Origin: Brevundimonas sp.
Lineage (GTDB): Bacteria > Pseudomonadota > Alphaproteobacteria > Caulobacterales > Caulobacteraceae
Direction: 5' to 3'
Length of the DNA: 64,000 bases
Assembly: GCF_016463295.1 (NCBI RefSeq)
Contig: NZ_JAEMRO010000002.1
Span: 119,860-183,859, forward strand
In this document: positions 14,907-35,994 of the stretch, piece after piece
Layout: every line of letters starts with the position of its first letter
Position numbering within the stretch: position 1 is the first letter of the stretch
Notes under the pieces: model-generated
Database searches by the model: none
What the model saw: only the letters and a program-made list of their open reading frames with translations
Told to the model about the DNA's origin: nothing
Position numbers and translations under genes: made by a program

Positions 14907-16088
14907 TCAGTCGTCGTCCATGATGCGATAGACGGCGAGTTGCGCCTTCCAGTCGGCCGGGAGTCGACCTGTGCCGCGCACAAGTTTCTTTAGACGACGA
15001 AGATCGTCCTGAATGATGTCTCTGCCTGCAGAAGTATCGAGGCTCTTGAGAGCCCAGACATCCTGCCAGAACTCGGCCGGAACGCCCGTCATCAAATTTC
15101 TGGCGGCGTCGCCAGCAGATTTGCCGTCATCGCCCATAATTGGGTGGTCATTGAAGGCAATATCGTACTGAGCCTTCAGTTGATCGACGATCATCTCCGA
15201 AAGGGATTGGATCGTCGCCTTCAACACGAGGTTCGGATACCTTCCGGCGTTGTCCGCGGTGATGCCGTACGTCGCGAAGATGGCCTTCCAGATGGCGTAA
15301 AGCACCGAAAGGGCGTCGCTCTCATCCTCCTTCGTCTCCGGAAAGGCGCGCGTGATGGCTTTCAGCGAATTTTCCAGCGCGGTGGGTTGAACAACAGGCT
15401 CTGCGCCTGGGAAACGGTTGTTCACCCAGTTGACCATCTTATAAAATGGACTCTCCGGATCTTCGTTGAGAACGTCGACGAAGGTCGCGAAGCGTGGAAC
15501 GGTGACGGACGCTTGCGTAAGACGGTCACGGAGCGGAATCTCGATCATGTCGAAATTCGCGATCAGCGCCTTGAGATTGTCGGTCGGTACCTTGTGTGAC
15601 TTGTTATTGATGGTGACGAACTGGAACGCGCGCTCCAGTTTGGACATACTAGGGAACAGACAAACGGGTACCGGGATTTCGGCCTCTACCTCGGCCATTC
15701 CGCGTAGCCGGTGTTGCCCATCCAAGATGTATGTGTGGTCCTGAACGGCGTTCGAGAGCGTCAATTCCCACAGATCATCGTCGATCTGCTGCATCGAATA
15801 ACCGGCGACATCATCCGTAAGGGTCGTTGGGTCATCGATATGGGGAAGGCCTTCATCGAAAGCGATGGTCACGCTCGTGGGAATGACGTTGTTCAGGGAC
15901 GCGCCGAAGAAGCGTTTGATTTGGCGCCAACGCGCATCAACCAGGGCGCGCTGCACATTACCCCTGTCCAGCTTGATATTGTCGGCATGCGCCCAGGTTG
16001 TGATTTCCTTGGCGTTAGCGACGAAGACTAGAAATGTCGCGTCTGTCCCCGCCTGTTGCTCGACCAGAAAGCCTCTATATTTATGCAC
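14907..16088 (-). CDS. DGQHR-domain protein (DndB/DpdB-like)
   Basis: The GTG at 16088 is chosen as the start because it overlaps the HNH gene stop (GTGCATAA); the track's 52 extra residues are antisense-type sequence from the HNH frame. The 393-residue protein has the DGQHR signature in YILDGQHRLRGMAE near residue 120, then FQFVTINNKSHKVPTDNL. The C-terminal half is helical. DGQHR proteins include DndB and DpdB, which act with DNA modification systems, but a catalytic role is not established for all of them. Coupling to the HNH nuclease suggests a two-gene module next to the Dpd genes. Whether it belongs to that system is inference. Confidence 0.75.
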   Translation of the reverse strand: MHKYRGFLVEQQAGTDATFLVFVANAKEITTWAHADNIKLDRGNVQRALVDARWRQIKRFFGASLNNVIPTSVTIAFDEGLPHIDDPTTLTDDVAGYSMQQIDDDLWELTLSNAVQDHTYILDGQHRLRGMAEVEAEIPVPVCLFPSMSKLERAFQFVTINNKSHKVPTDNLKALIANFDMIEIPLRDRLTQASVTVPRFATFVDVLNEDPESPFYKMVNWVNNRFPGAEPVVQPTALENSLKAITRAFPETKEDESDALSVLYAIWKAIFATYGITADNAGRYPNLVLKATIQSLSEMIVDQLKAQYDIAFNDHPIMGDDGKSAGDAARNLMTGVPAEFWQDVWALKSLDTSAGRDIIQDDLRRLKKLVRGTGRLPADWKAQLAVYRIMDDD

Positions 16089-16995
16089 GAAGCAGTATCC
16101 CTTCTTCGATCTCGTCACCGCAGGGACCGCAAGCGATCTCCACGTTGAAAAAATGATAGGCGTCCTTTGGGTCGCCGCGGACGATGAATAGACGCTCGTC
16201 GGCCGCCTCATAGAACGGTACGTCGCAGCGCGCGCAGCAACCACGCTGACGCCAGAGCAATGCGAACTTCTTCACACCCCCGAACGTTTCCGTGATCCGA
16301 GAAGGAGTGATCGAAGGGGTTACATAGGTCTCGACCGGCAGGTCCGCAAAGCTAATCAATACATCCTTGAACTTGTTGCATGACTTGCAACTGGCGGCGA
16401 GATTAGACCGATGCCTGCTCCCGCCCCGGCGTTGTGGGAAAACGTGTTCAATCTCGAAAGTCCAGTAATTCTGCGGCGCTCGCTGCTCGGGCAACGCGTC
16501 ATCGGGCAACTCCTCCTCGGCTTCAGCCTCATTGCCGAAAATGAGAGAATGGCCGCAAAGGTAGCAGCGATGGCTGTTGGCTTGGGCGAAGCGGCGAATG
16601 GTCTTCTTTTGACTTTTGGTGGGGTCCGCTCCTCCCGCCCGGATCCGTTCGCAGGCCCGTCGAAGAAACCAGACGATGTTTGCGCGTTCTTCCGCGCTAA
16701 GATCCAGAAGGTCATCGACGAGATTGTCGAGTTCCTGGTCAAGCGCCTCTCCTGGAAGATCATTAAATTCCCCAACGAGTTGCACGCCCCTGACGATCAA
16801 CCGGCTATGGACGAAGTTGGTGAGGCGGTCGCCCAGATAAGCATAGCTGTCGCTTGCCCGGAGGCTGATCGGTGGTGAAACGGGCAACAGTTGCTTGAGA
16901 ATAAGCCACAACTGCTCGCCCCAGTCTGCTGCTTTGGATTCAATTTCCTCGCCGAATAAATAGGTCTTCGTAAGAGCAACGCCGCTTGGAGTCAT
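16081..16995 (-). CDS. HNH endonuclease
   Basis: This 304-residue protein carries an HNH domain. CYLC (Cys144, Cys147) and CKSC (Cys203, Cys206) form a zinc site around EIEHVFPQRRGG (His184) and RSNLAASC (Asn198). A second treble-clef-like cysteine pair set (CCARC near residue 263, CGPCGDE near the end) suggests another zinc site. A strong GAGGAG Shine-Dalgarno precedes the ATG. The N-terminal ~130 residues are helical and of unknown family. It is the first gene of a minus-strand pair with the DGQHR protein and is divergent from the metallophosphoesterase-queE operon. It is a candidate restriction effector. Confidence 0.8.
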   Translation of the reverse strand: MTPSGVALTKTYLFGEEIESKAADWGEQLWLILKQLLPVSPPISLRASDSYAYLGDRLTNFVHSRLIVRGVQLVGEFNDLPGEALDQELDNLVDDLLDLSAEERANIVWFLRRACERIRAGGADPTKSQKKTIRRFAQANSHRCYLCGHSLIFGNEAEAEEELPDDALPEQRAPQNYWTFEIEHVFPQRRGGSRHRSNLAASCKSCNKFKDVLISFADLPVETYVTPSITPSRITETFGGVKKFALLWRQRGCCARCDVPFYEAADERLFIVRGDPKDAYHFFNVEIACGPCGDEIEEGILLRA

Positions 16996-17335
16996 GCCTT
17001 TCTCCTCATAGACCTTTCAATTCGATACATTAACTGTGTCATCCGCCTATTCGAGGTGCCTATAGCGCGATCGCCAAAGCGTAAAGCGGTGCTGTTAAAG
17101 TCAAAATACAGAAAAATGCCAACCATTGAAGGCCTAACTAGTAGGCGCAAATCCTACCCTGACAGAGCCGTCGGGTGGCTGACGGAGCCCCACGTCTTCC
17201 CGTCTCATATGCCTTTGGGCCCGTACGCCGAACCTCCGGCGAGGATGGCCTAAACCGAGGCTGCAACCCCTCACTGAAGTCCCGGCAGGTCGTGATCGCG
17301 CTCGCCTTATCCGCCGACGCCGCTAGGTTGTCGTC
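16996..17335. other. Divergent intergenic region
   Basis: This 340-bp gap separates the HNH/DGQHR pair from the metallophosphoesterase-queE operon and should hold both promoters. A locally A-rich stretch (17090-17130) stands out. I see no convincing gene; the 65-residue ORF at 17056 lacks a domain or a good ribosome site. Confidence 0.5.
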
Positions 17336-18289
17336 ATGAGCTACGACATCATAGGCGACATCCATGGTCACGCGGACCAACTGATTTCGCTTCTTCAAAC
17401 GCTCGGCTACCAGCACCGCGGCGGGGCTTGGCGTCACCCGAGCCGATCGGTGATTTTTGTCGGCGATTTTGTCGATCGCGGTCCGGGTCAACTGCGGACG
17501 CTCGAGATGGTGCGCGACATGGTCGAGGCCGGTTCGGCGCGGGCGGTGATGGGCAATCACGAGTTCAACGCGATCGCATGGGCGACCCCGCACCCGGCGC
17601 AAGAAGGCGCCTACCTGCGCTCACGCGCGGGCCCGGTGGGCGAGAAGAATCGTCACCAGCACCAGGCGTTCCTGGCCGAAGTCGCGGCCGACGGCGCCGA
17701 TCATCAGCGTTGGGTCGCCTGGTTTCTTGAGCTGCCGCTCTGGATCGAGGAGCCAGAGTTCCGTGTGGTGCACGCGTGCTGGAGCCCTCAACACGCTGAC
17801 CACCTAAGACCGCTGCTGCGCGAGGGCGAGCGGTTGAGCGTCGACCTGGTCCAGGCGGCGAGCCAGCGCGGCTCGCCCGAATATGAAGCGGTCGAAACGC
17901 TGTTAAAGGGGGCCGAGGTCGAGCTCCCCGACGGTCACAGCTTCACTGACAAGGACGGACATCATCGCACGGCTATTCGAATACGCTGGTGGGATCCGAC
18001 GCCAACCACCTACCGCGCCGCCTATATCGGTCCGGCAGGCGTCGACATGCCCGACCTGCCGCTGCCCACCTCTGAGCGGCGTCCAGCGCCTGACCGTCCG
18101 ACCTTCATCGGTCACTACTGGTTCGACCCGCTTGGGCCGCTCGCGCCGGTCACCCACCGTGTAGCGTGCGTGGATTTCAGCGTCGCAAAGGGCGGCCCGC
18201 TCGTGGCCTATCGCTATGATGGCGAGCCCGAACTGAGCGCCGCGAAGTTTGTGGCCGTGGACGTCGGAGCGGAGGTGCGGCGCACATGA
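17336..18289 (+). CDS. Metallophosphoesterase (PP2A/ApaH-like) coupled to queE
   Basis: This 317-residue calcineurin-like phosphoesterase shows the metal-binding series: GDIHGH (residues 7-12), FVGDFVDRGP near 44 and VMGNHEFNAI near 69. Later HACWSPQH and FIGHYWFD supply the remaining histidines. Relatives hydrolyse phosphoproteins, dinucleoside polyphosphates or pyrophosphates. Its stop overlaps the queE start (ATGA), so the two are translated together. That context suggests it works with preQ0 synthesis or with the Dpd system, for example on a nucleotide intermediate or a signalling nucleotide. This role is inferred from position only. Confidence 0.8.
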   Translation: MSYDIIGDIHGHADQLISLLQTLGYQHRGGAWRHPSRSVIFVGDFVDRGPGQLRTLEMVRDMVEAGSARAVMGNHEFNAIAWATPHPAQEGAYLRSRAGPVGEKNRHQHQAFLAEVAADGADHQRWVAWFLELPLWIEEPEFRVVHACWSPQHADHLRPLLREGERLSVDLVQAASQRGSPEYEAVETLLKGAEVELPDGHSFTDKDGHHRTAIRIRWWDPTPTTYRAAYIGPAGVDMPDLPLPTSERRPAPDRPTFIGHYWFDPLGPLAPVTHRVACVDFSVAKGGPLVAYRYDGEPELSAAKFVAVDVGAEVRRT

Positions 18290-18921
18290 CTTATGCTGTG
18301 AAGGAGACCTTCCTGACGGTGCAGGGCGAAGGCGGCCAAGCCGGCCGGCCGGCGGTCTTTCTGCGCTTCGCAGGCTGCAATCTCTGGAATGGACTGGAGC
18401 GCGACCTCGCCAGCGCCGTCTGTTCATTCTGCGACACGGACTTCGTGGGCACGGATGGCGACGGGGGCGGCAAGTTCGTGACCCCGGAGGCGCTGGCGGC
18501 TCATGTCGGATCGATGTGGCGAGGCCGCGAAGGCGATCCCAGGCTCGTCGTCTGCACGGGCGGGGAGCCCCTGCTGCAACTGGACAGGCCCCTGATCGCC
18601 GCCTTAAAAAACCAGGGCTTCGACATCGCCGTGGAGACCAACGGCACCATGGCTGCGCCGGAAGGGATCGACTGGATTTGCGTTAGCCCCAAGGCCGCGG
18701 CCCCTGTGACGCAGATCTCCGGTCAGGAGTTGAAGTTGGTCTATCCTCAAGCCTTGGCCATGCCTGAACGCTTTGAGGGGTTGGCCTTCGAGCAGTTCTG
18801 GTTGCAGCCGATGGACGGACCGGATCAGGCGGCCAACACCGCCGCCGCGCTGGACTACTGTCTCGCGCATCCGAGGTGGCGTCTCAGCATCCAGACCCAC
18901 AAATACATCGGGGTGCGCTAG
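18286..18921 (+). CDS. queE: 7-carboxy-7-deazaguanine synthase (QueE, radical SAM)
   Basis: This 211-residue radical SAM protein begins MTYAVKETFLTVQGEG, the QueE signature. The cluster cysteines follow the C-x14-C-x2-C form: one cysteine in FAGCNLW and two in AVCSFCD. This is the arrangement of the Burkholderia-type QueE rather than Cx3Cx2C. VVCTGGEPLLQ and AVETNGT bind SAM and substrate. The enzyme contracts 6-carboxytetrahydropterin to 7-carboxy-7-deazaguanine. It is on the opposite strand from island queD and queC but supplies the same pathway. Downstream, 18922-19147 has no gene. Confidence 0.92.
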   Translation: MTYAVKETFLTVQGEGGQAGRPAVFLRFAGCNLWNGLERDLASAVCSFCDTDFVGTDGDGGGKFVTPEALAAHVGSMWRGREGDPRLVVCTGGEPLLQLDRPLIAALKNQGFDIAVETNGTMAAPEGIDWICVSPKAAAPVTQISGQELKLVYPQALAMPERFEGLAFEQFWLQPMDGPDQAANTAAALDYCLAHPRWRLSIQTHKYIGVR

Positions 18922-19147: not shown

Positions 19148-21481
19148 GTGAGTAAGCGCAGGGGGCATGAGGCGTTGAAGGGTTTCAGTGCGTCCACGGT
19201 CAAGTCGTGGTTCCAGTACCGGTGTGAGCGGAAGGTCAGATACGAGCTTTCAAGCGATGACGAACTGGCGGCTGTGCCGGTGCTCAAAGACATTCGCGAA
19301 GCCCCTTGGGCCAGACTCGGCAATGAGTTCGAAGATCGCGTGGTCCATCGCTTGGCGGCCGAAGCGTCAGTTCTGCAGCCGGCGCCAGGCGAGAAAGTCC
19401 TGTCCGAGCGACTGACGCTTGCCTTTCTGCGCGGCGAACGATCGGAGACCTACGCCGCCCAAGTCAATCTGAAGCCCAAAGGCGTTCCGCGTTTTCTGGA
19501 GGGCACCGGGTTAGAACTCAACCGCAACATCGCCGATCTCGTTCGGCGAGAAATCCTGCCCGACGGTCGTGCTTGCTTCACGATCATCGACATCAAGGCG
19601 ACCCGGCGCGCCACGGCTTTCCACAAGACCCAGATCGCCTTCTATGTGCGGGTGCTGGAAGAGCGGCTCGCCGAGATCCGCCTGGCCGCTCCCGCCACCC
19701 TGAACCGAGACGGGGAGGTCTGGCGTATCCCGGACAGCGGGACGGCCCAGGGCGATCGGGCGGAGCCGGAGGTCTTTGCCCTGCGTCCCTATCTGCGTCA
19801 GGTCGACGATTTCTGCAGCCAGACTCTGCCGGTGATCGCCCAGAAGCGTATCGGCCGCGGTCCGTCCGATCAGACCTTCCACCACCTGTATTTCAAATGC
19901 GAACAGTGCGCCTTCCGGGAACACTGCGTGCAATCGATTGCACCGGAGCTGGGCGCGGCGCGGGACGTGTCTGCGGTCCCCGGCGTTACCCACGAGTCCA
20001 AACGTGCGCTCAAAAGGATGGGAATCGAGACTGTCGGGGCGCTGTCGAAAGCCCACGGTCTGGCGAAGACTCCCGGTGCGGGATGGTCGCTGACCCGCAA
20101 TGCGTCGCGGCTGGTCGCCCGGGCGGCCGCCCTGTCGACCAACACCATCCAGCGCACCGAGGAGGAGCACAGCTTTCTCATGCCGCCGAGAGCCGATCTG
20201 CGGTTTCTGGTCTCGGTCGACTACGACCCCGTCGATGATCGGATCGCCGCCATCGGTTATCGCCGCATGGGTTCGGATGGAACGACCAGCGATGACATCC
20301 GCGTCCCCCAGACTGCGGAGCTCAAGGATGAAGCTGACGCCCTGGTGGGGGTCATGGGCCGGCTCATCACCGATCTGGCCGCCGTGGATCAAGCCAATCG
20401 CGAGGCGATGGACCGGGGCGACGAAGCCGCGCTCCAATATGCGCACATATTCTTCTACGAGCCTTCCGAAGCGTTGAGCCTGCAAAAGGCGGTCGGCCGT
20501 CATCTCGACGACCCTCGCGTCCGCGGTGCCCTCCTGCATCTGGTCCGGCTGTTTCCGCCCGAGGACATCGTTCCGGAGCCGGAGTTCAAAGGCGCGCACC
20601 ATCTGCCCGCCACCGCCGTCCGCAGTGTCGTGGAGCAACTCTACGCCTTGCCCGTCTCGGTCGCCTATGATCTGCGCCAGGTCAGCCAGGCGCTCGCCAC
20701 CGTCGGCGCCGCCGCGCCCTATGCGCCGGCGGACGGGTTCGAGCGGCCGTTTTCGTCTCTGTTGTCCATCGACGTCATCCGCGGGTTCCGGGAAGGCGTG
20801 GCCGGTGCGCCCGAAACGGCTGACATCGTCGCCGATGTCGCCGCCCGGCTTGGCGCCCTGCAGGCGGTGATCGCCTGGCTCTACGAACAGCATGCGGTCG
20901 CGGCCGCCGCCGGCGCGCCTATGCTGCGGCTGAATAAGCGGCCGTTCCTGTTCCACGAGACGTTTGATCCGCTCGATGCGGCGGACCTGGATGTTCTCAT
21001 CGCCTGCGAACTTCTGGAGAACCGGGCGGGCCTTCTTGAGGCGCTGGTCAACCTGGCCCAACCCGCCAGCAGACGCCGGGACGGTGGCCGCGCCATGGCG
21101 GGCCTCGAGTTGATGTCCATGGTCAACTACGGCCGCGACAAGCTGATGAGGTTCAGGATTCCGCCCGCCAGTCAGGACAGCGATCTCGGGCCCAACGATC
21201 TCAAACTGATCCTCACCGACGACCAGCCGGACCTGCGCCTGGATATGCTGCAGTGGCCCTTGGTGGAGTGTCGGATCCTCCAGCCGTCCCAGCAGGACCT
21301 AGCCTATCCCAACATCGTCAAGGTGATCGTACGAAAGGATGTCTTCGACGGGCCCCTCTTCCAGGACCTGCTCCGGACAACGCCGGCCAACGGCTGGCAT
21401 CTCGATCGGCATTTCATCGACTTCAACACAGACAAGGCCGCGCGCTTCCTGCGCCATCTGGCCGCGGGGCAGGCGGCATGA
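19148..21481 (+). CDS. RecB/Cas4-type nuclease with Fe-S cysteines, HhH and RNase H-like region
   Basis: This 777-residue protein starts at GTG 19148. The PD-(D/E)XK core is visible as FTIIDIKATR (Asp-x-Lys) followed by HKTQIAFYVRVLEE, the Q-x3-Y motif of RecB-like nucleases. An N-terminal cysteine (WFQYRCERK) and C-x2-C-x5-C (KCEQCAFREHC near residue 250) are placed as in Fe-S cluster nucleases such as Cas4 and AddB. VPGVTHESKRALKRMGIETV resembles a helix-hairpin-helix, and the next segment (LRFLVSVDYDPVDDRIAAIG) looks RNase H-like. This order recalls the nuclease half of TM0106-family RecB-like proteins, where a helicase normally follows in the same chain. Here the helicase is the next gene, coupled by ATGA. 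The likely role is end-processing or DNA cleavage in the restriction arm. Confidence 0.75.
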   Translation: MSKRRGHEALKGFSASTVKSWFQYRCERKVRYELSSDDELAAVPVLKDIREAPWARLGNEFEDRVVHRLAAEASVLQPAPGEKVLSERLTLAFLRGERSETYAAQVNLKPKGVPRFLEGTGLELNRNIADLVRREILPDGRACFTIIDIKATRRATAFHKTQIAFYVRVLEERLAEIRLAAPATLNRDGEVWRIPDSGTAQGDRAEPEVFALRPYLRQVDDFCSQTLPVIAQKRIGRGPSDQTFHHLYFKCEQCAFREHCVQSIAPELGAARDVSAVPGVTHESKRALKRMGIETVGALSKAHGLAKTPGAGWSLTRNASRLVARAAALSTNTIQRTEEEHSFLMPPRADLRFLVSVDYDPVDDRIAAIGYRRMGSDGTTSDDIRVPQTAELKDEADALVGVMGRLITDLAAVDQANREAMDRGDEAALQYAHIFFYEPSEALSLQKAVGRHLDDPRVRGALLHLVRLFPPEDIVPEPEFKGAHHLPATAVRSVVEQLYALPVSVAYDLRQVSQALATVGAAAPYAPADGFERPFSSLLSIDVIRGFREGVAGAPETADIVADVAARLGALQAVIAWLYEQHAVAAAAGAPMLRLNKRPFLFHETFDPLDAADLDVLIACELLENRAGLLEALVNLAQPASRRRDGGRAMAGLELMSMVNYGRDKLMRFRIPPASQDSDLGPNDLKLILTDDQPDLRLDMLQWPLVECRILQPSQQDLAYPNIVKVIVRKDVFDGPLFQDLLRTTPANGWHLDRHFIDFNTDKAARFLRHLAAGQAA

Positions 21482-24400
21482 GCACGCGCGACTACATCCT
21501 GCGTTTTCTCAATCAGCCAGAGACCTTCGCCACCGGCGCGAGCGATCCGGAGGTCTGGCTTCAGGCGCTTCGCGAGGTCGCTGCGCCCCTCCTCAGAGAG
21601 GGCGGCGGGCCTGCGTTGCGACCCGCGCAGGTCACCGCTTGGGAGGGACTGGCTCCCACCCGCGCGGGTCTTGTGCTCGGCCCGCCCGGGACCGGCAAGA
21701 CGCACCTCCTGGCGTGGCTGATCGTCGGCTACATCCTGGCGCGGAGATCGGCCGGCCTGCCGGCGCGCGTGTTCGTCAGCGCCTTCACCCGCAACGCCAT
21801 AGGCAATCTTCTCGACAGCGTTGCCGCCCGGGTCGGACAGTTCGCGCCAGAGGCCTTCGACGTCCATTACCTGGGCGCAGCGCCTCCCGCGGGACTGTCG
21901 CAGCGCATCAAGCATCGGGCCTCGGTCGCCAAACAGGAGGGCGAGGCGGCCTTCGCGGACCTGGACGCCGAGGCGGTCGTGGTCGGCGCCTCGGTCTGGC
22001 AACTGCACCGCCTGCTTTCGCACAAGAAGGCGCCCGGCGACGGCGTCTTGGCTCCTCTGTTTGATCTTGTCTGTATCGACGAGGCGTCGCAACTGGTGCT
22101 CAGCCAAGGCCTGATGGCCCTTTCCGGACTGAAGCCCGATGGGCGGATCGTCGTCGCTGGTGATGACCGGCAACTACCCCCGATCCGTGCGGGCCGCGAC
22201 GTCGATGTCAGCGGACGTCAACTCGGAAGCTCTCTCTACGCCTTCCTGAAATCCGCGGGCGCGCCGGAGTTCGCCCTCGAAGAAACCTTCCGCCTCAACG
22301 GACCCCTCACGACCTTCCCGGAGAAGACCTTCTATCTCGGCAAATATCGATCGGCGGACGCCGTCCGGGACGCGCGTCTGGCCCTCAAACCCGACTGGCG
22401 TGAAGGACTTGAGCCGTGGGAAGCGCATGCGCTCGACCCCGATTGGCCCATCGCGGTTCTCGTCCATGACGGTCCGTCCGCTTCGAGCAGCAATCCGTTC
22501 GAAGCTTGGGCCAGCGCGCGGCTGCTGGAAAAGCTGGCCGAGCGTCTGGAGGATGTGACCGAGGCGGACGGGGCCTACAAGAGCGATCTCTGGCGTGAAC
22601 GGATCGCGGCGGTCAGTCCGCACCGCGCTCAGAACACAGCCATTCGAAACGCTTTGCCGGCGCCGTTGCGCGCCAACGCCTTCGTCGAAACCGTGGACCG
22701 GATCCAGGGCAAGGAGCGCGATGCGGTCGTTCTGTCCTACTGTGTTGCCGACACCGAGTTTGCCCTCGCCGAGGCGGACTTCATCTTCGCGCCCGAACGC
22801 CTCAACGTGGCCGTGACGCGAGCGCGTCACAAGCTGATCGTTCTGATCAGCCGCCGCCTGCTTGAGGCCTCGCCGGTCGACCAGGAACAGATGGACAAGG
22901 CCGAGGGCTTGCGCGAGTTCGTCTTCGACGCGGCACTCATGCGCGAAGTCGAGGTCGTCGACAACACCGGCGCCAAGGTCGACGTTCAGATCCGTCTTGT
23001 CGGCTTTGAAGACTCCGGAGACCTGATCGACCCGCCGGTCCAGGCGCCTGTTGCGCCGCCTTCGACCCAAGCCCTGACCGATGAGGACGAGCATCTCCTT
23101 CAGGCTGTGCGGGATGTCGCGCTCGCCAGCGCCTATGGCACGGCCGCGAGTTTTGCGCTCGAGAAGCGCCTCGGGCCAAAGTCCGTTCTGCCCGGTCTGA
23201 GCCGGTTGCAGGCCGGGGGTTACATCGACCTGTGGCAAGTCATTACGGCCAAGGCCAATTTCTGGAACGCGCGGCCGCTCGACCCGCCCCGCCGGATCTT
23301 CCCGGCCGACCATGAAACCGTCAAAGGCCGCGCTGAGGAGGTCATCAACCAGTCCAAGCGAAGCCGCAAGCCGCCCCTCTATGACGATGTTCGACGCCAG
23401 TTCGCCTGGGTGAACGTTGAGGGACGGGACGTCGTGCGGCCTTCATTCGATCGCCTGCGCGATGAAGGGCTGATCCAGTATTCGAGCGATGGCGAAAAGC
23501 TCAGGATCGAATGGACGGGCGTCGCCACCTTGGAGCCCTTGCCCGAACCGCCCGAAGCGCCGGCCCTGTCCGATGAAGATTTCGCGGTCCTGAACGCGCT
23601 CGAGACCCTGGAGGCCAAACGGATCAATTTCGGGGTCTTTGAAGGCTGGACCTCGGCGGCCACCCTGGCGGATGGCCAAGGCTTCAGTCGACCCCAAGCC
23701 CAGGCCGCGCTGGGTCGGCTCGCGGCGAACGGCTGGGTGCTGTTCGCCGGCGAGGGGCGCGTGCGTAGCCGGATGGCCGAACTCGCCCGCGAGGTCCGCT
23801 ATGTGAAGCAGCGGTTCGATCGGGATGATGCGGATAAGCGCCCCTTCCTGGTTCGCAGCCTGAAGGTGGAATTGCGAGATCGCAACAAGCCCCTCAGATC
23901 CGAACCGCTGGCGGCCGTGTTCGATGATCTGGCGGCGGAACTGGGCGGGACCCATGCCCAAGCCCTGATATCGCTTAAGGACGGCCTCATTGGGCTCTGG
24001 GGCCCGAAGGCGACCATCGCCGGCTTCCAGCGCCGCAGCCTAGAGGCGCTCAGTCGCGCCTGGGCGGGAGTCGGGACCGACGCCGTCGTCATCTCCGCAG
24101 ACACCGGGGCCGGCAAGACCGAGGCGGCGGCCCTTCCGTTGATCGCCGGCGCCGCGGCGGACCGTCTGGCTGGCGTCAAGGGCGTGCGAGCCGTGCTCGC
24201 CTATCCCCGGATCAGGCTCGCGACCAATCAGGCTCAGCGTCTCGTGCGCTATGCGGCCATTCTCTCACGCCAACCCGGAGCCCCCAGACTCACCGTCGGC
24301 ATGCAGTTCAAGGGCACGCCCAATCGGCTGGACGCCCTTCAGGACTGGGACAGAGACGAGGGCTGGCGGCTGTTGTCCGATCGCGAACTCGTCTTCCCCC

Positions 24401-27400
24401 TGTTCGGCTGCCCGGAGTGTGGTCAGACCCTCCATCTCCACAATGGGGGAGGGGACGCCGGCGCCGACCGACTGGCATGCGTGGCGTGCGACTGGTCGTT
24501 CGACGGCTGGATCGGCAGCAAAAATGGCCTGCGCGAGACGCCGCCGGCGCTGTTCATCATCACGACGGACTCGCTGCATCAGTGGATGCACAATCCGATC
24601 GCCGGCCGCCTGTTCGGAGATGATCCGGCGTACGCCCCGCCCCGGGCGGTCATGGCCGATGAGATCCACCTTTATTCCCATGTCCATGGCGCCCAGGTCG
24701 CGCTCGCGCTGCAGCGCCTGTCAGCGCGCGCCGCGATCAATGCGCCGGATGCCCCCGCCATGCTGATGGTCGGGATGAGCGCCACCTTGGGCGACCCTGC
24801 CGCCACCTGGGGCCGGCTCGCCGGGCGCGCCGAGGTTCTGTCGATCGCCGCCAGCGACAAGGAAAAGGAGATCAATCCGCGCGGCCGGGAGTATTTCTAC
24901 TTCATCCAGCCCGAGGTCGAGTCCCGCGGCGCGGACATCGCGGGCGCTTCCACCACGATCCAGAGCCTGATGTGCCTTGCCCATGGCATGAGGCGACGGA
25001 CCGACAGCGATGGCGGATTCCGCAGCGTGGTGTTCCTCGATTCAATCGACAAGGTTCGCCGCCTGCACGGCGACTACACCGACGCCGAGGACGGCAAGGA
25101 ACTCGCAAGCTACCGCACCCGAAAATATCCCGAAGATCCCGCGACCGGAGAACTCCCGACGCAGTGTTGCGGCGAGCCCTATGGGTGCGACCGGTTCCAG
25201 GGTGGCGAATGTTGGGTGTTCGCCGCGCAGGACACCGCCCAGATCGGTGCCCAGGGTTTGCGGCGACCCGGCCAACCGCTGAGCGTCATCGACAGGCCCG
25301 TCACCTCCGCCTCGACGGGACGGGTCGAGGACGCGATCAAGGCGGCCGACGTGGTCTTCGCCACCTCATCGCTGGAGGTCGGCTACGACGATCCGGATAT
25401 CACCCTCGTCTATCAACACTATGCGCCGCAGAATCTCGCCAGCTTCGTTCAACGCAAGGGGCGGGGAGGGCGCGGCAGCGATGACCGCCCCATCACGGCG
25501 GTGACCCTGTCCATCTATACGAGCCGCGATAGCTGGTGGTTCAAACGACCGTGGACCATGCTCGAGCCGACGGGCTTCAACAGCCCCCTCAACCCCGACA
25601 ATTTCTTCGTGCGACGCGGTCAGATCGTCTCGACCATCCTAGACGCCTTCGCGCGCTACGAGCGGCGTTTCGGCGGCTTCGATCCGAACACGCCGCCCCC
25701 GCCGGCGCTGGTCGAGGCCGAGGCGCTCGTTCGGCGCGTGTTCGGCGGCCCTGTCTGGGAGGGTTACGCGGCGGATCTGGGCGCGCTTTGGGCGCTGGCC
25801 CTCGCGCAGCGCAATGGCACAGCCAGGGGCTCCGGTCTGCCGCGTCTACGCGGCGAGCTCGACTGGGCGCCGGACCTTCTGTTCGATTCCATCAACCTGC
25901 CCCGACTGAACGTCATCCGCGCCGGTGAGGCCGAACCTCGCGCGGAGGACGTGTCTCTCGCCGCCGCCACCGTGTCGCCCGGCGGCGCCACGCGACGCTA
26001 TCACGCCGTCGAGGTCGACTGGCGCCCACCGGTGGCGGGGCAGGGGCCATGGTTGGCCGCGCAAGACTATGACTCTGCCCAGAGGCTGAGGCCTTTCGGT
26101 GATGATCCAAACGCCTGGCTTGAGCGTCTGCCAAGGGAGGCGAGAACCTTGTTGCCCGGCCTTGAGGCGGAGTATGTCCGGCCCCGGCAGATCACCCTGC
26201 AGCGCCTCGGTCAGGTGCATGGCGCGACTTGGATCGCCGACTTCGGGCTGGACGCGAGCGATAATCTCGTTCCGGCGCGTAATGCGCCGCAAAACCGGCA
26301 GATCGGCCACCAGTCTCATAGCCATCTGCGCGGCTTTCCTGTCCTGAAGCCGGCCGACGATGAGGCGAGACCGCTGTCCACCGGACGGCTCAAGCCCTGG
26401 GTCGAGGCCTTCAACGCCTTCCTCGGCGACGGCGTTGGCGGCAAAACGACGGGTCTCGGCTTGGCGCGGGTGTTCTGGGGCGCCGACGCCGAACTCGTTC
26501 TGACCGGCCCGCCCCGCGAAACCCTTCCGATCACCCAGGTCTTCACCTCGCCAGGCAAGGGGCCGACCCTGCACGGTTATCACGTGCAGACTGAGGGAGT
26601 TCGTTACCGTCTCGACGCCGGTCGGCTGGGCGATTTCCTCGACAGGGAAGCGGCCCGGCTGACGGTTGATGATCAGGCCCGCAAGCGCGTCGTGAGCGCC
26701 CTGGTCCGTTGGAAGGTGGAGAGCGGCGCCCAGTCGCTCGGGCTGAACATGTTCCAGATGCGCCGCGCCGGTGAGTTGATCTCTAGCGCCCTGGCCGACC
26801 CGGCCTATCTAGACCGGCTCAATCGGATCGCCTTCCTCTGGAACAAGGGCGATATCGCCTCCCTGTTCGAAGATGTGCGGGCGGATCTGCTGGCCTGTCA
26901 TCCGCTCCTGTCGCCCGAGCGCGTGGTCAAGGTGGCCGATGCCTTCTCTGACGACCGTCTCAAGCCGATCCTGTCAGAGGCGCTGCGGGCGGCGGGAGAT
27001 CGCGCCGAGATCAGGGCCTGGCTGCAGTCCGCCGTCGTTCACAGTCTAGCGCTCCGCTTGAAGGACAGCTTCGTTCACATCGGGCACGGAGATGATCGGC
27101 AGGTCCTCGTTCATGCCGCCCTGCCGCTGCAGTTCGGCGCCGACCTCGAGGGAGGCCGCGACATCATCATCTGTGAAGTTGGTAATCATGGAGACGGAAC
27201 GACCCGCGCCTTTGTCGGTCAGGCTGACGACGCCGCCAGCCATTGGCGTGACGGCTTCCTTGGTGATTGCCCGAATGCGACAGAGGACGCCGCGCTGGAT
27301 CGCCTCTTCTCTCTTCAGGAGCACCATGCCGGTTGGCGGGCGCTCGATCCGAACGACCCGGCCGCGCTCCAAACCTTGGCCGAACCTCTCGGCCTGGATC

Positions 27401-27831
27401 CGAACATGCCGCTGCCGGCCGGGGTCCTGAGGGTTCTGTTCGGGGTTGAAGCGGTCGGAAGCGAACGGTTCGATCTCTATGACCTGGCGTTCGCCGTGCG
27501 CGGCTCGAGCCTTTCATTGCAAGCTCGACTGGGGCGCCCGCCGACCGCCTGGGAGGCGACGAGCGTCGCCGTCCGCGGCGCCGAAACCCAGCCCGATTCT
27601 GTCCTGAACCATTTGCTGGCGGCCTATGGCGGGTTGGAGGAAGGGTTGCAAGAGGAGGGGCTCAGCGCGCGAGGCCGGCTGGCGGACCAGGTCTATCGCC
27701 TGAGCGCGCGCCTCTGCGTGGATGGTTGCCCGGCCTGCGTGCATCGGCCGAGCGACCTCATGAGCGAAGGCCTGATGGAAGCATCGACGAGCCGTGCGCT
27801 GCTGAGCCGCTTCCTCTGTGAAGAGGCCTAG
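21478..27831 (+). CDS. dpdJ: DpdJ-like helicase fused to an N-terminal Dna2/UPF1-type SF1 helicase
   Basis: The ATG at 21478 overlaps the nuclease stop; the track start at 21253 lies inside the nuclease gene. The protein has 2117 residues. N-terminal SF1 helicase: GPPGTGKTHL near residue 68, VCIDEASQL near 200, DRIQGKERDAV near 408 and NVAVTRARHKL near 442. A region of probable winged helices follows (~540-800). The second motor is SF2: ADTGAGKTEAAA near 875, a zinc ribbon (CPECG...CVACDW) near 980-1005, MADEIHLYSH near 1060, and SSLEVGYDDPD with QRKGRGGRG near 1295-1330. The C-terminus has the DUF1998-type CVDGCPACVHRPSDL. The SF2-DUF1998 part matches DpdJ of the 7-deazaguanine restriction system. 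The SF1 fusion is unusual. It ends tail-to-tail with the dpdI-position gene. Confidence 0.75.
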   Translation: MSTRDYILRFLNQPETFATGASDPEVWLQALREVAAPLLREGGGPALRPAQVTAWEGLAPTRAGLVLGPPGTGKTHLLAWLIVGYILARRSAGLPARVFVSAFTRNAIGNLLDSVAARVGQFAPEAFDVHYLGAAPPAGLSQRIKHRASVAKQEGEAAFADLDAEAVVVGASVWQLHRLLSHKKAPGDGVLAPLFDLVCIDEASQLVLSQGLMALSGLKPDGRIVVAGDDRQLPPIRAGRDVDVSGRQLGSSLYAFLKSAGAPEFALEETFRLNGPLTTFPEKTFYLGKYRSADAVRDARLALKPDWREGLEPWEAHALDPDWPIAVLVHDGPSASSSNPFEAWASARLLEKLAERLEDVTEADGAYKSDLWRERIAAVSPHRAQNTAIRNALPAPLRANAFVETVDRIQGKERDAVVLSYCVADTEFALAEADFIFAPERLNVAVTRARHKLIVLISRRLLEASPVDQEQMDKAEGLREFVFDAALMREVEVVDNTGAKVDVQIRLVGFEDSGDLIDPPVQAPVAPPSTQALTDEDEHLLQAVRDVALASAYGTAASFALEKRLGPKSVLPGLSRLQAGGYIDLWQVITAKANFWNARPLDPPRRIFPADHETVKGRAEEVINQSKRSRKPPLYDDVRRQFAWVNVEGRDVVRPSFDRLRDEGLIQYSSDGEKLRIEWTGVATLEPLPEPPEAPALSDEDFAVLNALETLEAKRINFGVFEGWTSAATLADGQGFSRPQAQAALGRLAANGWVLFAGEGRVRSRMAELAREVRYVKQRFDRDDADKRPFLVRSLKVELRDRNKPLRSEPLAAVFDDLAAELGGTHAQALISLKDGLIGLWGPKATIAGFQRRSLEALSRAWAGVGTDAVVISADTGAGKTEAAALPLIAGAAADRLAGVKGVRAVLAYPRIRLATNQAQRLVRYAAILSRQPGAPRLTVGMQFKGTPNRLDALQDWDRDEGWRLLSDRELVFPLFGCPECGQTLHLHNGGGDAGADRLACVACDWSFDGWIGSKNGLRETPPALFIITTDSLHQWMHNPIAGRLFGDDPAYAPPRAVMADEIHLYSHVHGAQVALALQRLSARAAINAPDAPAMLMVGMSATLGDPAATWGRLAGRAEVLSIAASDKEKEINPRGREYFYFIQPEVESRGADIAGASTTIQSLMCLAHGMRRRTDSDGGFRSVVFLDSIDKVRRLHGDYTDAEDGKELASYRTRKYPEDPATGELPTQCCGEPYGCDRFQGGECWVFAAQDTAQIGAQGLRRPGQPLSVIDRPVTSASTGRVEDAIKAADVVFATSSLEVGYDDPDITLVYQHYAPQNLASFVQRKGRGGRGSDDRPITAVTLSIYTSRDSWWFKRPWTMLEPTGFNSPLNPDNFFVRRGQIVSTILDAFARYERRFGGFDPNTPPPPALVEAEALVRRVFGGPVWEGYAADLGALWALALAQRNGTARGSGLPRLRGELDWAPDLLFDSINLPRLNVIRAGEAEPRAEDVSLAAATVSPGGATRRYHAVEVDWRPPVAGQGPWLAAQDYDSAQRLRPFGDDPNAWLERLPREARTLLPGLEAEYVRPRQITLQRLGQVHGATWIADFGLDASDNLVPARNAPQNRQIGHQSHSHLRGFPVLKPADDEARPLSTGRLKPWVEAFNAFLGDGVGGKTTGLGLARVFWGADAELVLTGPPRETLPITQVFTSPGKGPTLHGYHVQTEGVRYRLDAGRLGDFLDREAARLTVDDQARKRVVSALVRWKVESGAQSLGLNMFQMRRAGELISSALADPAYLDRLNRIAFLWNKGDIASLFEDVRADLLACHPLLSPERVVKVADAFSDDRLKPILSEALRAAGDRAEIRAWLQSAVVHSLALRLKDSFVHIGHGDDRQVLVHAALPLQFGADLEGGRDIIICEVGNHGDGTTRAFVGQADDAASHWRDGFLGDCPNATEDAALDRLFSLQEHHAGWRALDPNDPAALQTLAEPLGLDPNMPLPAGVLRVLFGVEAVGSERFDLYDLAFAVRGSSLSLQARLGRPPTAWEATSVAVRGAETQPDSVLNHLLAAYGGLEEGLQEEGLSARGRLADQVYRLSARLCVDGCPACVHRPSDLMSEGLMEASTSRALLSRFLCEEA

Positions 27832-28523
27832 CCGCGGACGCGGAAAGCCGACAAGGCGCCCTTCTCCGTCAACCAGGCCATGACCTTGGGCGTGACCATG
27901 TCCAGGCTGGCTTCCTGGCGCGTGACCGCTTCAAGAAAGGTGTCGACTTCGGGTTCGTCGGTAAACGCCTGCATCGCGTCCAGGGTCTGGGCCCGCCTCA
28001 GGCGAAGCGCCGGCGCGCCTTCGGCAAGCTTCTCGGCCGACGGATCACCATTGGCGAGCGTCTGGGCGGCGGTGCTGATCTCGACCAGATCATGCCCGAT
28101 TGCCTCCGCCCCTGCGATCTTCGAAAGGAGGTGGCCGACAGCGGCCAAGTCCACGAAATCCTGCGCCACCAGTTGGGACCAGTGGTTTCTGAGCCGCTCG
28201 ATGACCTGCATCAGGGCGGAGCCGACCATAGGATAGTCCGCCGCGGCCGCCTCAAGTTCATCCGCCGTCTCGGCGTCCTCAAGGCTTTCGCCCACGCTCT
28301 GCGCCTTGGCGATCGCCCCCGACAACCTCTGGCGCAGGGCCGCGTCGTTCAGGCCGTCCAGGTCGTGCGCGCATTGAACAAGGCGCGCCAGCAAGAGCGC
28401 ATGACGGGGGGCCTGCTCGACGGGAACCCGGGCCTTATCAGCCGCTGCGCCAAAGGCTAGGCTCTTCTTGGAGCTAGCGATACGCGGTGCGAGGTCTTCG
28501 AGACGTTCAAGAGCGTCCGTCAT
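27828..28523 (-). CDS. Helical protein in the DpdI position
   Basis: This 231-residue protein is predicted to be almost wholly alpha-helical, with alanine-rich repeats (ETADELEAAAADYPMVGSAL) and a conserved-looking LRNHWSQLVAQDFVDLAAVG. No catalytic motif is visible. Its start overlaps the dpdH stop (ATGA), and it is the last gene of the long minus-strand dpd operon. Its stop overlaps the dpdJ stop on the other strand in CTAG. By position it would be DpdI, but I do not recognise the sequence well enough to use the symbol. A structural or adaptor role with the ATPase is a reasonable guess. Confidence 0.55.
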   Translation of the reverse strand: MTDALERLEDLAPRIASSKKSLAFGAAADKARVPVEQAPRHALLLARLVQCAHDLDGLNDAALRQRLSGAIAKAQSVGESLEDAETADELEAAAADYPMVGSALMQVIERLRNHWSQLVAQDFVDLAAVGHLLSKIAGAEAIGHDLVEISTAAQTLANGDPSAEKLAEGAPALRLRRAQTLDAMQAFTDEPEVDTFLEAVTRQEASLDMVTPKVMAWLTEKGALSAFRVRG

Positions 28524-31500
28524 TTCGCGGCCTCCAGTCGTTCGCGCGCGTGTTCAGCCGCCTCGGCCAGCGTCCGCCCCGCCGTATGAATGTCATCGAT
28601 GTTTACGGTCTTGTCGGCGTCGCCCACGAGATCGCGGACATGGGGCAGGAGGGCGGCCACGGCCGCTTCACCACGACTGAAGAGATCTAGAGCGCCTGAC
28701 AGTTCGCCCGCAGGCGCGGCGATCAGCCAGGCCAGGCCTTCGGGACCGGTCAGCGGTGTCGAGCCGCTTTCCGGCGAGAGCCGCCAGAGCAGTTCGATCA
28801 AGCGATTGTGGGGCTCGGTCTCCAGAATGCGGGCCTGGCGTCGCCGCTCGTCTCCCCAGGCCTTCACCTCCGTCGTCGCCTTGCCGATCATGTCGCTGGA
28901 CACCTGATCGATGAGGGCGACCAACCGTTCATTATGGTCCCGCGGCGCCTTGCCGCGCAGCATGGCCATCAGACGGTTGACGCGATCCTTGAGGATTTCG
29001 TTTTCGCCGCGAACGATGCGCGGCAGATGTTGCGCCAGGCGGTCCGCCATGGGGCGAATATCGCGCCAGTCGAAGGGCAACTCGGGCGTCGAAGGTTCCA
29101 CGCCTGGCGAGAAGGCGAGGGTATTGCGGACTTGAGCAAGCGCCTCGGCCGCCATGCTGGCGTCCGCCAGACCAAAGGTAGCCGCCGTTCCCTGAGGCAG
29201 GCTGATCATGCGGCGCAGAGACTGCCGAACGTTCTGGTGACGCTTGTCGCTGCCCGTCAAGGCCTCCTGCCAGGGCTGGGTCCGCTGACTGGGCGCCGTT
29301 GAAGGCTCGCCTTCGTCGCTCAGCAGGGCGACCCACTGGACGGCGCTGCGTTCGGTCGGCGAGGTCGCGCCGCGTAACCAGGCGCGGACAGCCAGCGCCT
29401 GGGTCGCGGCGGCGACAGGCGACCATCGGCGGCCGTCCGTGGTGAGCGGCAGGAGTCGGTCCAGATGCGAGCGCGCCCGCTGTTCAAGGCGACGGCTGAA
29501 ACGAGCCAATCGCCCTCTGTGAAATTCCGTCTGCTCGCCCGTCAGGTCATCGTCCACGCGCAACCGCGCATAGGCTTCCAGACCTTCGATCAGCCAGGCC
29601 TCTCGCGGGATGACGAAGTGGGTGCTTCCCGTCTGACCGGTGCCGGCGATCTTGATGTTGGACGCGGTGAAGACCTGCTCGAAGGTGCGACGGTCGGTGC
29701 CCAGCCGACGCGGATCCATCTCGCGGACGACGCGGTACACCGCGTCATTCCATTCGCTGACATTGGGCACGATGCCGTCGGTCCGAAGCGTCTCGACCTG
29801 TGCCAGCAGCCTCTGCAGTTCCTGCCGCGTCGCCTGTCGGGGCTCGTTCGTCACTCGCGTCGGCGTCGTCACCGTGCGGACGCGCTGGGCCGGCCCGGTT
29901 GGCGCAGCAGGCTGGCTGTCGCCCTGGGCGCCGGCCTCAGGCGCCGAGGGACGAACCGGCGTCGCCGGAGGCTCGGCCGCGGACACCGTCTGCCCGTCCC
30001 CGATCCAGGGGAGGTTGAAGGCCTCCAGCACGTTGCGCTGCACGCCCGCGAAACGTTCGACGCCGTCCTCGACCGTCTTGCGGGGACGAAGGTCGCCCCA
30101 ATAGCGGAGGACGCGGTTCAGTCGCGCCTCGGCGAGGGGATCATCGGATCTGTTGCGAACCAGGGTCCGCATCGAGCCGTCCAGGAAGGGCGGCTCCAGA
30201 TAGCGGGACTCGATTTCGGGACCCGGATAGGCGCCCGTTTCCAGCCTCTCGGGATTGAGCAATGTCGGATTGAGAACGCCCTGAAGCACGCCGCGGGGCG
30301 TCTTGTGGGTTTGGCCGTCATCATCGTTCTTGAGGGCCTCATAGAAGCCGTCGACCGCCTCCGCCGTGAAGGGAAACAGTCCGATTCCGTCGGCCTGCCC
30401 GAACGCACTGAAACACGGCTCGACGCGGGGGCACATCGGACAGGGATTGGGCGGCTCCAGCGAGGCGTCATCCCGATAGGCGGACCGCCAGGCGACCAGG
30501 TCGTCCACTCCAGTTCGGACCGCGGACAGATAACGCGCCACGAACCGGGTCCGCTCGCCGCGGCCAAGGGCTGCGATCTCGCGGGCCTGGCCATCGCTGC
30601 TGACGCCGAGTCGGATGGAGTGGGTGATGCGCTGCTGATAGTTGGTTTTGAGCTGGCGGTAGTATTCGGTCGTCAGGCCGATCACCGAAATCAGGGGGCA
30701 GACGTCGCCGTCGTCGCGCAAGGTCGCGTCGGCGACCAGGGCGTCGACCAGGCTATCGTCGAGCCCCTCCCACATGGTCACGTCTTCGAGCAGGAGGACC
30801 AGGCGGCGACGGTGGCTCGCCGGCTTGTCCCTATCCTGGCGCGCCAACTCCGCGCGCAACTCCATGAAGAGGCGCTTGAGGGCCTCGGCGGAAACACCGA
30901 GCACGCCCTGCACTGCTTGATTGCGTCGGGCGTTCAGTGCTTGAACCATCATCAGAACGTTGGGGATCTGATCGGCGAGATCGGCCTGGATGTGCTCCAT
31001 GGAGGACCCTTGCGCCAGCGCCTCCTCGATCACGCTGCTCTCCAGGGACAGCTTCATGCCGAGCCGCCGCGCCTTCTCCGAGTCACCGGCCGTATGGCTT
31101 TGCCAAAGCTCGCCGAGTTCGATCACGTCGGGGATGTCGAAGGTGGCTGACGCGGAGTTGCGGTCCTTGCCCCCGCTCATGATGCGCAGGATGCGATCAG
31201 GGCCCTTCCAGTGCTCTCGCACGGGCGCTGACAGGATCAGTTTGTCGGGTTCATGATCACGGCACCATTCGATGTCCTCGGGCGGCGCGTCGAAATAGTT
31301 GGCGGCCAGCATCGCGCCCAGCGTGGTCAAAAACTGGAAGGCGCGGCCTTCGAGTCCGGCCGCATGCCTCTGGCCCAGACCGTCGAAGAGATAGCCCAGT
31401 TCGGCTGGAAGCTTCGCCTTGAGTTGCTTCAGCGCGCCGAGAAGCGAACCGTCTGCGCGCTGAATCAGGAGACAGAAGTCCCGTTCGGCCGGCCAGTTGA

Positions 31501-31771
31501 CCTCCAGCCATCGGATCAGGTGGGACTTGCCCGATCCGGGTTCGCCTTGGACGACGCAGAAGGCGTGGCGACGCGCCGGGTTCGACAGCGTTTTGAGCAA
31601 GCCCTCCTGGGTAGCCGCCTCCAGATCGAACTTTTCTGATGTCGCTTCGAAGTCCCGGACCGCGGTGTGGGTGGCGAGGAAAATGGCCTCCTCCGCCGCG
31701 AGCGCCTGGGTTTGCAGGATCGCGTCCGCATTCGCGCGCGTCCAGCAGGGTGGGTGGTGCAGTTCAGTCAT
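28520..31771 (-). CDS. dpdH: DpdH-like P-loop ATPase
   Basis: This 1083-residue protein has a Walker A GEPGSGKSHLIRW near residue 76 and a Walker B-like RRLVLLLEDVTMWEGLDDSL near 320, indicating a STAND/AAA-like ATPase. A cysteine group (CPMCPRVEPC) near 440 may bind metal. A proline/alanine-rich linker follows near 600-640 and then a long helical C-terminal half. The length and order match DpdH, the large ATPase of the Dpd restriction genes. It probably senses or remodels DNA together with DpdG and the helicases. It overlaps dpdG by 8 nt and its neighbour downstream by 4 nt. The large plus-strand ORFs here are antisense shadows. Confidence 0.75.
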   Translation of the reverse strand: MTELHHPPCWTRANADAILQTQALAAEEAIFLATHTAVRDFEATSEKFDLEAATQEGLLKTLSNPARRHAFCVVQGEPGSGKSHLIRWLEVNWPAERDFCLLIQRADGSLLGALKQLKAKLPAELGYLFDGLGQRHAAGLEGRAFQFLTTLGAMLAANYFDAPPEDIEWCRDHEPDKLILSAPVREHWKGPDRILRIMSGGKDRNSASATFDIPDVIELGELWQSHTAGDSEKARRLGMKLSLESSVIEEALAQGSSMEHIQADLADQIPNVLMMVQALNARRNQAVQGVLGVSAEALKRLFMELRAELARQDRDKPASHRRRLVLLLEDVTMWEGLDDSLVDALVADATLRDDGDVCPLISVIGLTTEYYRQLKTNYQQRITHSIRLGVSSDGQAREIAALGRGERTRFVARYLSAVRTGVDDLVAWRSAYRDDASLEPPNPCPMCPRVEPCFSAFGQADGIGLFPFTAEAVDGFYEALKNDDDGQTHKTPRGVLQGVLNPTLLNPERLETGAYPGPEIESRYLEPPFLDGSMRTLVRNRSDDPLAEARLNRVLRYWGDLRPRKTVEDGVERFAGVQRNVLEAFNLPWIGDGQTVSAAEPPATPVRPSAPEAGAQGDSQPAAPTGPAQRVRTVTTPTRVTNEPRQATRQELQRLLAQVETLRTDGIVPNVSEWNDAVYRVVREMDPRRLGTDRRTFEQVFTASNIKIAGTGQTGSTHFVIPREAWLIEGLEAYARLRVDDDLTGEQTEFHRGRLARFSRRLEQRARSHLDRLLPLTTDGRRWSPVAAATQALAVRAWLRGATSPTERSAVQWVALLSDEGEPSTAPSQRTQPWQEALTGSDKRHQNVRQSLRRMISLPQGTAATFGLADASMAAEALAQVRNTLAFSPGVEPSTPELPFDWRDIRPMADRLAQHLPRIVRGENEILKDRVNRLMAMLRGKAPRDHNERLVALIDQVSSDMIGKATTEVKAWGDERRRQARILETEPHNRLIELLWRLSPESGSTPLTGPEGLAWLIAAPAGELSGALDLFSRGEAAVAALLPHVRDLVGDADKTVNIDDIHTAGRTLAEAAEHARERLEAAK

Positions 31772-35128: not shown

Positions 35129-35298
35129 TAACGCGGACCCTGCCGAGGCCAGCGTCATCGTAAGGGAAGCGTTCGTGATCGCTAGGCCGCGCCGCGACCT
35201 CGGACTGTAAACCCTGCACTCAAACTCCCCCTTGAGGACATCAAAGCGCAGCAACCTTGCGTTGGCAAATCATTACGCAAGGCAGACCGGTGGATGAA

Positions 35299-35994
35299 TC
35301 AGGCGGAGGCGGCGCGCCAGCGGTCGAAACCACTGCGGCGCAGATCACAGGCGGGGCATTCGCCACAGCCTCGACCCCAAGCGTTGGAGGTTTCGGTTTC
35401 GCCCTGGTAGCAGGTCAGGGTTTCGGATCGGATCAGTTCGACGAGGTCCGGCCCGCCCAACCCATCCGCCAAGGCCCAAGTCTCGGCTTTGTCGACCCAC
35501 ATCAGCGGCGTCTCTAAAACGAGGCGTGTTTCCATGCCGAGGTTGAGCGCCACCTGGAGCGCCTTGATCGTATCGTCCCGGCAATCAGGATAGCCGGAGT
35601 AGTCGGTCTCGCAGACCCCGGTGACTACGTGCTTGAGACCGCGGCGATAGGCGACGGCGGCCGCGAAGGTGAGAAAGAGCAGGTTACGGCCCGGCACAAA
35701 GGTATTGGGCAGGCCGGACGCGGTTGTGACGATCTCAACGTCCTTGGTCAGGGCCGTGTGGCTGATCTCGCCGAGGACGCTCAGATCGAGGACGCGGTCA
35801 TCGCCGAGCCGCTCATCCCAATCCTTGTAGGTACGCATTTTGTTGAGGACGACGGTGCGGGCATCCAACTCGGCCCGGTGGCGCTGCCGGTAATCAAAGC
35901 CAATGGTCTCGACGCGATCGAACCGATCGAGCGCCCAAGCGAGGCAAGTCGCGGAATCCTGGCCGCCGGAAAACAGGACCAAGGCACCGCTCAC
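35299..35994 (-). CDS. queC: 7-cyano-7-deazaguanine synthase (QueC)
   Basis: The GTG at 35994 overlaps the queD stop (GTGA) and gives 231 residues, the normal QueC length; the track start at 36105 is inside que[18 protein letters not shown] is the PP-loop that binds [22 protein letters not shown] and [14 protein letters not shown] are QueC-specific, and [11 protein letters not shown] supplies the zinc cysteines. The enzyme makes preQ0 from 7-carboxy-7-deazaguanine, ammonia and ATP. Its place inside the dpd operon ties preQ0 production to DNA modification rather than to tRNA queuosine. Confidence 0.93.

Follow-up and report, generated by a model that had tools for sequence, protein, structure and literature searches.

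A DGQHR-HNH gene pair that recurs beside 7-deazaguanine and phosphorothioate modification genes: a candidate mark-gated restriction effector

At the left end of a Dpd island in Brevundimonas sp. stand two adjacent genes, one encoding an HNH endonuclease and the other a DGQHR-domain protein, and the question they raise is whether they act with the DNA modification made by the island or independently of it. The window analysed is the whole stretch of 64,000 nucleotides (GCF_016463295.1, contig NZ_JAEMRO010000002.1, positions 119,860 to 183,859) in which the island lies. The HNH gene comes first (16081-16995, minus strand, ATG start, 304 aa), preceded by an AGGAG ribosome-binding site at 17002-17006. 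The DGQHR gene follows (14907-16088, minus strand, 393 aa) with a GTG start at 16088, and the two share an 8-nt overlap, GTGCATAA (16081-16088, minus strand), which likely reflects translational coupling. A GTG at 16244, offered by a mechanical ORF call as the DGQHR start, was rejected because it lies inside the HNH gene. The 8-nt overlap is found again in the related pairs of A. vitis and Mesorhizobium, and a 14-nt overlap in that of Burkholderiales PBB2. The first-pass annotation had described a tight pair whose GTG start overlaps the HNH stop and which diverges from metallophosphoesterase and queE; both features are present, the latter two genes being on the plus strand and the pair on the minus strand.

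The island extends from 17.3 to about 41 kb, in the order metallophosphoesterase (17336-18289, plus strand), queE for 7-deazaguanine precursor synthesis (18286-18921, plus strand; TIGR04508, 336.8 bits against a cut-off of 240), a block of restriction genes encoding a PD-(D/E)XK-like protein, a helicase-DpdJ fusion, DpdI, DpdH, DpdG and DpdF (19148-35254), queC (35299-36105, minus strand; TIGR00364, 209 bits), DpdB2 (36393-37496, minus strand; NF041060, 377.9 bits, cut-off 300), the DNA-guanine transglycosylase DpdA (37493-38779, minus strand; NF041059, 558.8 bits, cut-off 200), DpdB1 (38776-39882, minus strand; NF041060, 410.6 bits, cut-off 300) and a DUF6884-like protein. The combination of dpdA with deazaguanine synthesis genes, by which a Dpd island is defined here, is represented by DpdA, QueE, QueC and the two DpdBs. 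At 19148-27831, the 777-aa PD-(D/E)XK-like protein and the 2192-aa helicase-DpdJ fusion seemingly replace dpdD/E/K, a variant also seen in Skermanella, Caulobacter S6, Methylobacterium XJLW and Azospirillum (L042, L044, L045 and L063); DpdD was not found in this genome by a search that had no positive control. The DUF6884-like protein (39873-41033), upstream of dpdB1, has counterparts adjoining dpdB1 or dpdA in nearly all Dpd islands examined and perhaps performs a DpdC-like step. Past the Dpd genes, a terminase-like protein, a ParB-methyltransferase fusion and a large serine recombinase (41045-44371 and 48323-49963) possibly mark a mobile part or the right end of the island.

The HNH protein has a helical N-terminal region of about 120 aa, then a zinc-HNH core, then a second CxxC/CxxC set. 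Pfam assigns it to HNH_5 (35.2, cut-off 27.5) and HNH (27.1, cut-off 21.4), with no DUF1524-type HNH domain. The catalytic core, EHVFPQRRGGSRHRSNLAASCKSCN (aa 183-207; 16375-16449, minus strand), was located by alignment, in which H184, G191/G192, N198, C203, C206, N207 and K210 are invariant (alignment A5); the nuclease motif is kept in all ten HNH relatives. Both of the zinc-type cysteine sets claimed in the first-pass annotation were found, namely CYLC144/CKSC203, which accompanies the core and occurs in 10 of 10 relatives, and CARC254/CGPC289, which is confined to the five close relatives. Assignment to Septu PtuB was rejected, as the match reaches just 11.7-14.2 bits over some 35 residues of the core and the partner is a DGQHR protein, not a PtuA ATPase; likeness to Septu, IscB and Cas9 in general is confined to the HNH core. 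A structure prediction for this protein (pLDDT 49) was too poor for use.

The partner carries its signature motif at aa 123-127 (15708-15722, minus strand), the equivalent of the DGQQR NTPase motif in GmrS, SspE and DndI (PMC4619093, PMC11662687), and belongs to the DGQHR-domain family TIGR03187 by a score of 86.4 bits (cut-off 58.85), the match spanning residues 64-337 of the mechanical ORF. Exactly three TIGR03187 matches occur in the whole genome, all in this island: this DGQHR and the two DGQQR proteins, which are the DpdBs flanking dpdA, just as the first-pass annotation had counted. The protein is not a third DpdB copy, as it reaches 62.9 bits against the NF041060 cut-off of 300 and falls in a separate clade (98/97). 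It is also distinct from the dnd-island DGQHR proteins (DGQHR_dnd_1, TIGR04172; Serratia dpt cluster), which the ProPhylo paper found confined to dnd-positive genomes and for which no HNH partner is described there (PMC3226654); against that model it scores 51.3 bits, with a cut-off of 450. A Pfam scan to E<=1 returned DndB (PF14072, 19.8 bits, cut-off 29.1) as the sole match, and hence no DUF262 (PF03235). The AlphaFold model (pLDDT 74.7) has among its top matches Spo0J (ParB), PadC and sulfiredoxins, all weak with E > 0.5, and a profile search of the PDB gave no match. Within the DndB/DpdB superfamily, the protein is a probable NTPase of the ParB/Srx type.

A scan of 84,980 species, one genome each and blind to gene context, returned seven relatives. 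Six had enough flanking DNA to judge, and all six lie in Dpd islands: those of Pseudomonas viridiflava, Mesorhizobium, Burkholderiales PBB2, Rhizobium, Nocardioides and another actinomycete. The Dpd-island hosts of the pair thereby span the alpha-, beta- and gammaproteobacteria and the actinobacteria. The seventh, from Desulfobacterales (L013), is a frameshifted DGQHR on a 4.5-kb contig on which the HNH gene was not seen; neither dpdA nor dndC was detected in that genome. Plasmids added four loci, two beside Dpd genes and two beside dnd (phosphorothioate) genes. In A. vitis pUnnamed2 the pair lies between dpdD and queuosine genes, with 57% and 41% identity, and in P. aeruginosa ppae01 HNH-DGQHR directly adjoins dndBCDE. 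Bradyrhizobium pB41S5 and A. larrymoorei pTiAF3.44 carry divergent pairs whose order is reversed, DGQHR preceding HNH, the former beside Dpd modification genes and the latter near dndCDE. No dndFGH were annotated in the stretches examined at the P. aeruginosa and A. larrymoorei loci. A four-gene cassette common to the Bradyrhizobium and A. larrymoorei plasmids was considered and rejected, since DGQHR and HNH are homologous and the helicases and fourth proteins are not.

With the window included, there are thus 11 informative loci, nine beside Dpd genes, two beside dnd genes and none elsewhere; BREX, type I R-M or CRISPR genes stand beside the pair in none of the 11. The HNH-to-DGQHR order, tightly coupled, holds in eight loci, and the recurrence of a tight pair in the same order across classes is more than chance and no local accident. 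Since dpdA is a rare gene, found in 3 of the 399 genomes sampled from the phylum (that of the window among them), a chance linkage of the pair to Dpd is negligible, although the loci are related and therefore represent fewer than eleven independent events. The search for conserved DGQHR-HNH neighbours proposed in the first-pass annotation has yielded a recurrent pair, and the housekeeping setting that it named as a refutation did not appear: among the informative loci of the clade, none has housekeeping genes or an unrelated defence system as its setting. Its suggestion of a separate defence system is weakened by the same counts. The pair is nevertheless an optional part of Dpd islands, as many lack it. 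In the stretches examined, it is missing from the islands of Skermanella, Caulobacter, Methylobacterium and Azospirillum, which have the same fusion and PD-(D/E)XK protein, and from that of Shinella, whose dpdD-K set is about 90% identical to that of A. vitis. Additional whole-genome sampling by class and by order gave no new pairs. A phage-borne pair was also sought and rejected: a single-protein viral scan was empty, and profile scans gave distant DGQHRs and short HNH-core matches with no pair. On one contig (L018), a DGQHR and an HNH-like match lie about 2.5 kb apart.

A maximum-likelihood tree places the ten DGQHRs of the HNH-partnered kind, counting that of P. viridiflava whose HNH has been lost, in a single clade (support 98/97), apart from DpdB1, DpdB2, DndB and DGQHRs that are partnered otherwise. 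Within this clade, the dnd member from P. aeruginosa joins the Dpd members from actinobacteria (99/96), and the one from A. larrymoorei joins the Dpd member from Bradyrhizobium (98/93, on long branches and uncertain). By parsimony on this topology, the lineage would have undergone at least two changes of modification system; the HNH tree was too weakly resolved to inform on such changes.

Single partners have decayed repeatedly. In A. vitis the HNH gene is intact and the DGQHR gene is split by an IS5 element; the Mesorhizobium locus (L010) keeps HNH with a DGQHR from which four residues immediately ahead of QHR are missing, the signature D and G among them; P. viridiflava (L009) keeps DGQHR and has a transposase gene in place of HNH; and Rhizobium (L012) has a frameshift, with a further frameshift in dpdJ of the same assembly. 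L010, L011 (PBB2) and L012 are metagenome assemblies, and single lesions could therefore be assembly errors. Taken together, the decayed copies suggest that loss of either half is tolerated. The pattern suits mutual dependence, with a nuclease unable to act without its DGQHR partner, the pair becoming useless, not lethal, once half is lost.

We consider it very likely that the pair is functionally coupled to DNA modification, and somewhat probable that DNA-modification islands take it up as an accessory restriction effector, with HNH cleavage gated by the mark. This reading draws on gene structure, protein family, recurrent linkage to two chemistries, membership of one clade, optional presence and partner-wise decay. 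The HNH protein would be a nuclease, probably a nickase. The DGQHR protein would bind HNH or DNA, presumably in a complex, and its NTP binding or hydrolysis would couple the status of the DNA mark to cleavage. Host DNA bearing the mark of the island would be spared and incoming unmarked DNA cut, the mark being dPreQ0/dADG made by QueE, QueC, DpdA and DpdB in this genome, and phosphorothioate at the dnd loci. Most likely, the pair cuts DNA lacking the right mark. It lives with genes that mark its own chromosome, where cutting its own mark would be suicidal, which makes sparing of marked DNA the simpler direction.

The closest precedents are restriction proteins whose HNH nuclease is under the control of a ParB/Srx-type NTPase, and the pair is best read as a putative split analogue of DndI, SspE and GmrSD. 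DndI of the Salmonella IscS-DndBCDE-DndI system is, much as predicted for the pair, a ParB-superfamily DGQQR NTPase with an HNH nuclease linked to a DNA-modification operon; it is a phosphorothioate-stimulated ATPase and nickase that nicks unmarked DNA and spares marked DNA, the marks stimulating the NTPase and releasing the enzyme (PMC11662687). DndI, however, is one fused protein with DUF262 and DUF1524, found with dnd, whereas the pair is two genes, a DGQHR protein (TIGR03187) and an HNH_5-type zinc HNH, mostly found with Dpd. SspE of SspABCD-SspE is a mark-sensing GTPase with a DGQQR motif that controls an HNH nickase, and differs in being a DUF262/DUF1524 fusion of the ssp phosphorothioate system that needs the mark for activation (PMC9646914, PMC13251355). 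The type IV enzymes GmrSD/BrxU also join a ParB/Srx DGQQR subunit to an HNH subunit and exist in a two-gene form (GmrS, GmrD), but they target glucosylated hydroxymethylcytosine, use other domain families and have no tie to a modification operon (PMC4619093). Since the proteins are separate and lack DUF262 and DUF1524, we do not file the pair as a member of the GmrSD/SspE/DndI group, though it probably works alike. As for the Dpd system itself (DpdA-DpdK), the pair lies inside such islands and its DGQHR is a distant relative of DpdB, yet it corresponds to none of the named Dpd proteins, falls below the DpdB cut-off and is absent from many of these islands.

Several observations run counter to a mark-gated effector. 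The Desulfobacterales relative resides in a genome without detectable dpdA or dndC, and the structural matches of the predicted DGQHR model to ParB/Srx folds are weak and non-significant. The switch between 7-deazaguanine and phosphorothioate complicates the idea that the same fold reads one chemical mark directly. Gating by marks remains the best fit to the comparative data, as all informative loci adjoin Dpd or dnd; what does not stand in the first-pass suggestion is 7-deazaguanine as the exclusive cue of the family, because two members accompany dnd genes. It is conceivable, as a more tentative reading, that one DGQHR-HNH lineage is a mark-agnostic, exchangeable effector passed between the two systems, the DGQHR protein having re-evolved its mark reader or reading through the resident DpdB or DndB paralogue. 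Most host islands, moreover, already have restriction genes of the DpdD-K type, and the pair may do something else. A rival reading, which we hold to be rather unlikely, is that the pair is a type IV-like enzyme in its own right, cutting foreign DNA with other modifications, complementing Dpd or Dnd against hypermodified phages and co-located because defences cluster. The domain logic of GmrSD (DGQQR NTPase with HNH) and the presence of D-K genes in most pair-bearing Dpd islands speak for this, as does a plasmid on which GmrSD is reported to complement BREX (cited in PMC12839542). A hitchhiker would, however, be expected elsewhere too, and 11 of 11 informative loci are beside Dpd or dnd.

That the pair assists modification itself, its DGQHR acting as a third DpdB-like NTPase and its HNH nicking DNA to give DpdA or Dnd proteins access or to repair failed exchanges, seems improbable. 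DpdB, of the same superfamily, is reported as the driver of base insertion in the Dpd systems described (PMC12839542), but the DGQHR proteins form a separate clade and DpdB-type proteins are present anyway; many complete islands (Skermanella, Caulobacter, Methylobacterium, Shinella, Azospirillum) also do without the pair. A toxin-antitoxin or abortive-infection role, in which HNH would be the toxin and DGQHR its restrainer, is quite improbable. The overlap of the two genes, with the nuclease leading, and their presence on plasmids and in islands would suit it, but DGQHR loss is tolerated, as by the intact HNH of A. vitis with its IS5-split partner and that of Mesorhizobium with a signature-deficient one, and tolerance of either loss argues against DGQHR as an antitoxin. 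The DNA marks themselves may be what restrains HNH.

In Burkholderiales PBB2, a betaproteobacterial metagenome-assembled genome, the island reads HNH-DGQHR-dpdB-dpdA-dpdB-DUF6884-like-triple QueD-like, and no nuclease other than the pair was seen alongside the Dpd modification genes. A search of this genome, which may be incompletely assembled, found no DpdH, and for DpdF nothing above the RecQ-like level of score; DpdF and/or DpdH are present in the other Dpd-positive hosts that were tested. If the reading is correct, this island, apparently made up of modification genes and the pair and nothing else, would offer a compact restriction-modification system open to testing. The restriction side of 7-deazaguanine defence is poorly understood, and the pair would then give it an effector that the literature searched does not name; mark-gated ParB-type NTPase/HNH effectors (DndI, SspE, GmrSD) would be a general design that serves base-modification systems too. 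Our full-text search, which covered few subscription journals and is no proof of absence, found no description of a DGQHR-HNH pair with Dpd; a reappraisal of dnd lists HNH nucleases near dnd genes, in the form of SRA/SBD fusions, with no mention of Dpd or DGQHR (PMC10853773).

Other arrangements were seen along the way. The QueD-like protein of PBB2 (L011:15930-17036), beside its minimal Dpd island, has 368 aa and three QueD-like stretches in tandem. In Bradyrhizobium 41S5 (L043:13082-16679) and Rhizobium WYJ-E13 (L062:11757-15321), a UvrD-like helicase and a PD-(D/E)XK nuclease adjoin Dpd modification genes without dpdD-K in the region examined, and are possibly a further alternative restriction half of Dpd. 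On Providencia and Leptospira plasmids and in an Acinetobacter phage (L067:6929-8799, L068:6971-8900, L072:6854-8789), DGQHR is followed by a protein of about 295 aa without an HNH motif, in the phage behind a DNA methyltransferase; with a non-HNH partner and a position outside the clade, these DGQHRs were not counted with the pair. Finally, a triad that joins an adenine methylase of the Dam type to a small membrane-like protein (157-207 aa) and a DGQHR protein recurs in Roseateles, Acinetobacter TR3 and a genome of the order-level sample, G953 (L069:5542-8092, L071:2062-5051, L106:2102-4600), adjoining a BglII-type nuclease in Acinetobacter TR3; it looks like another partnership of DGQHR with a DNA-modification enzyme.
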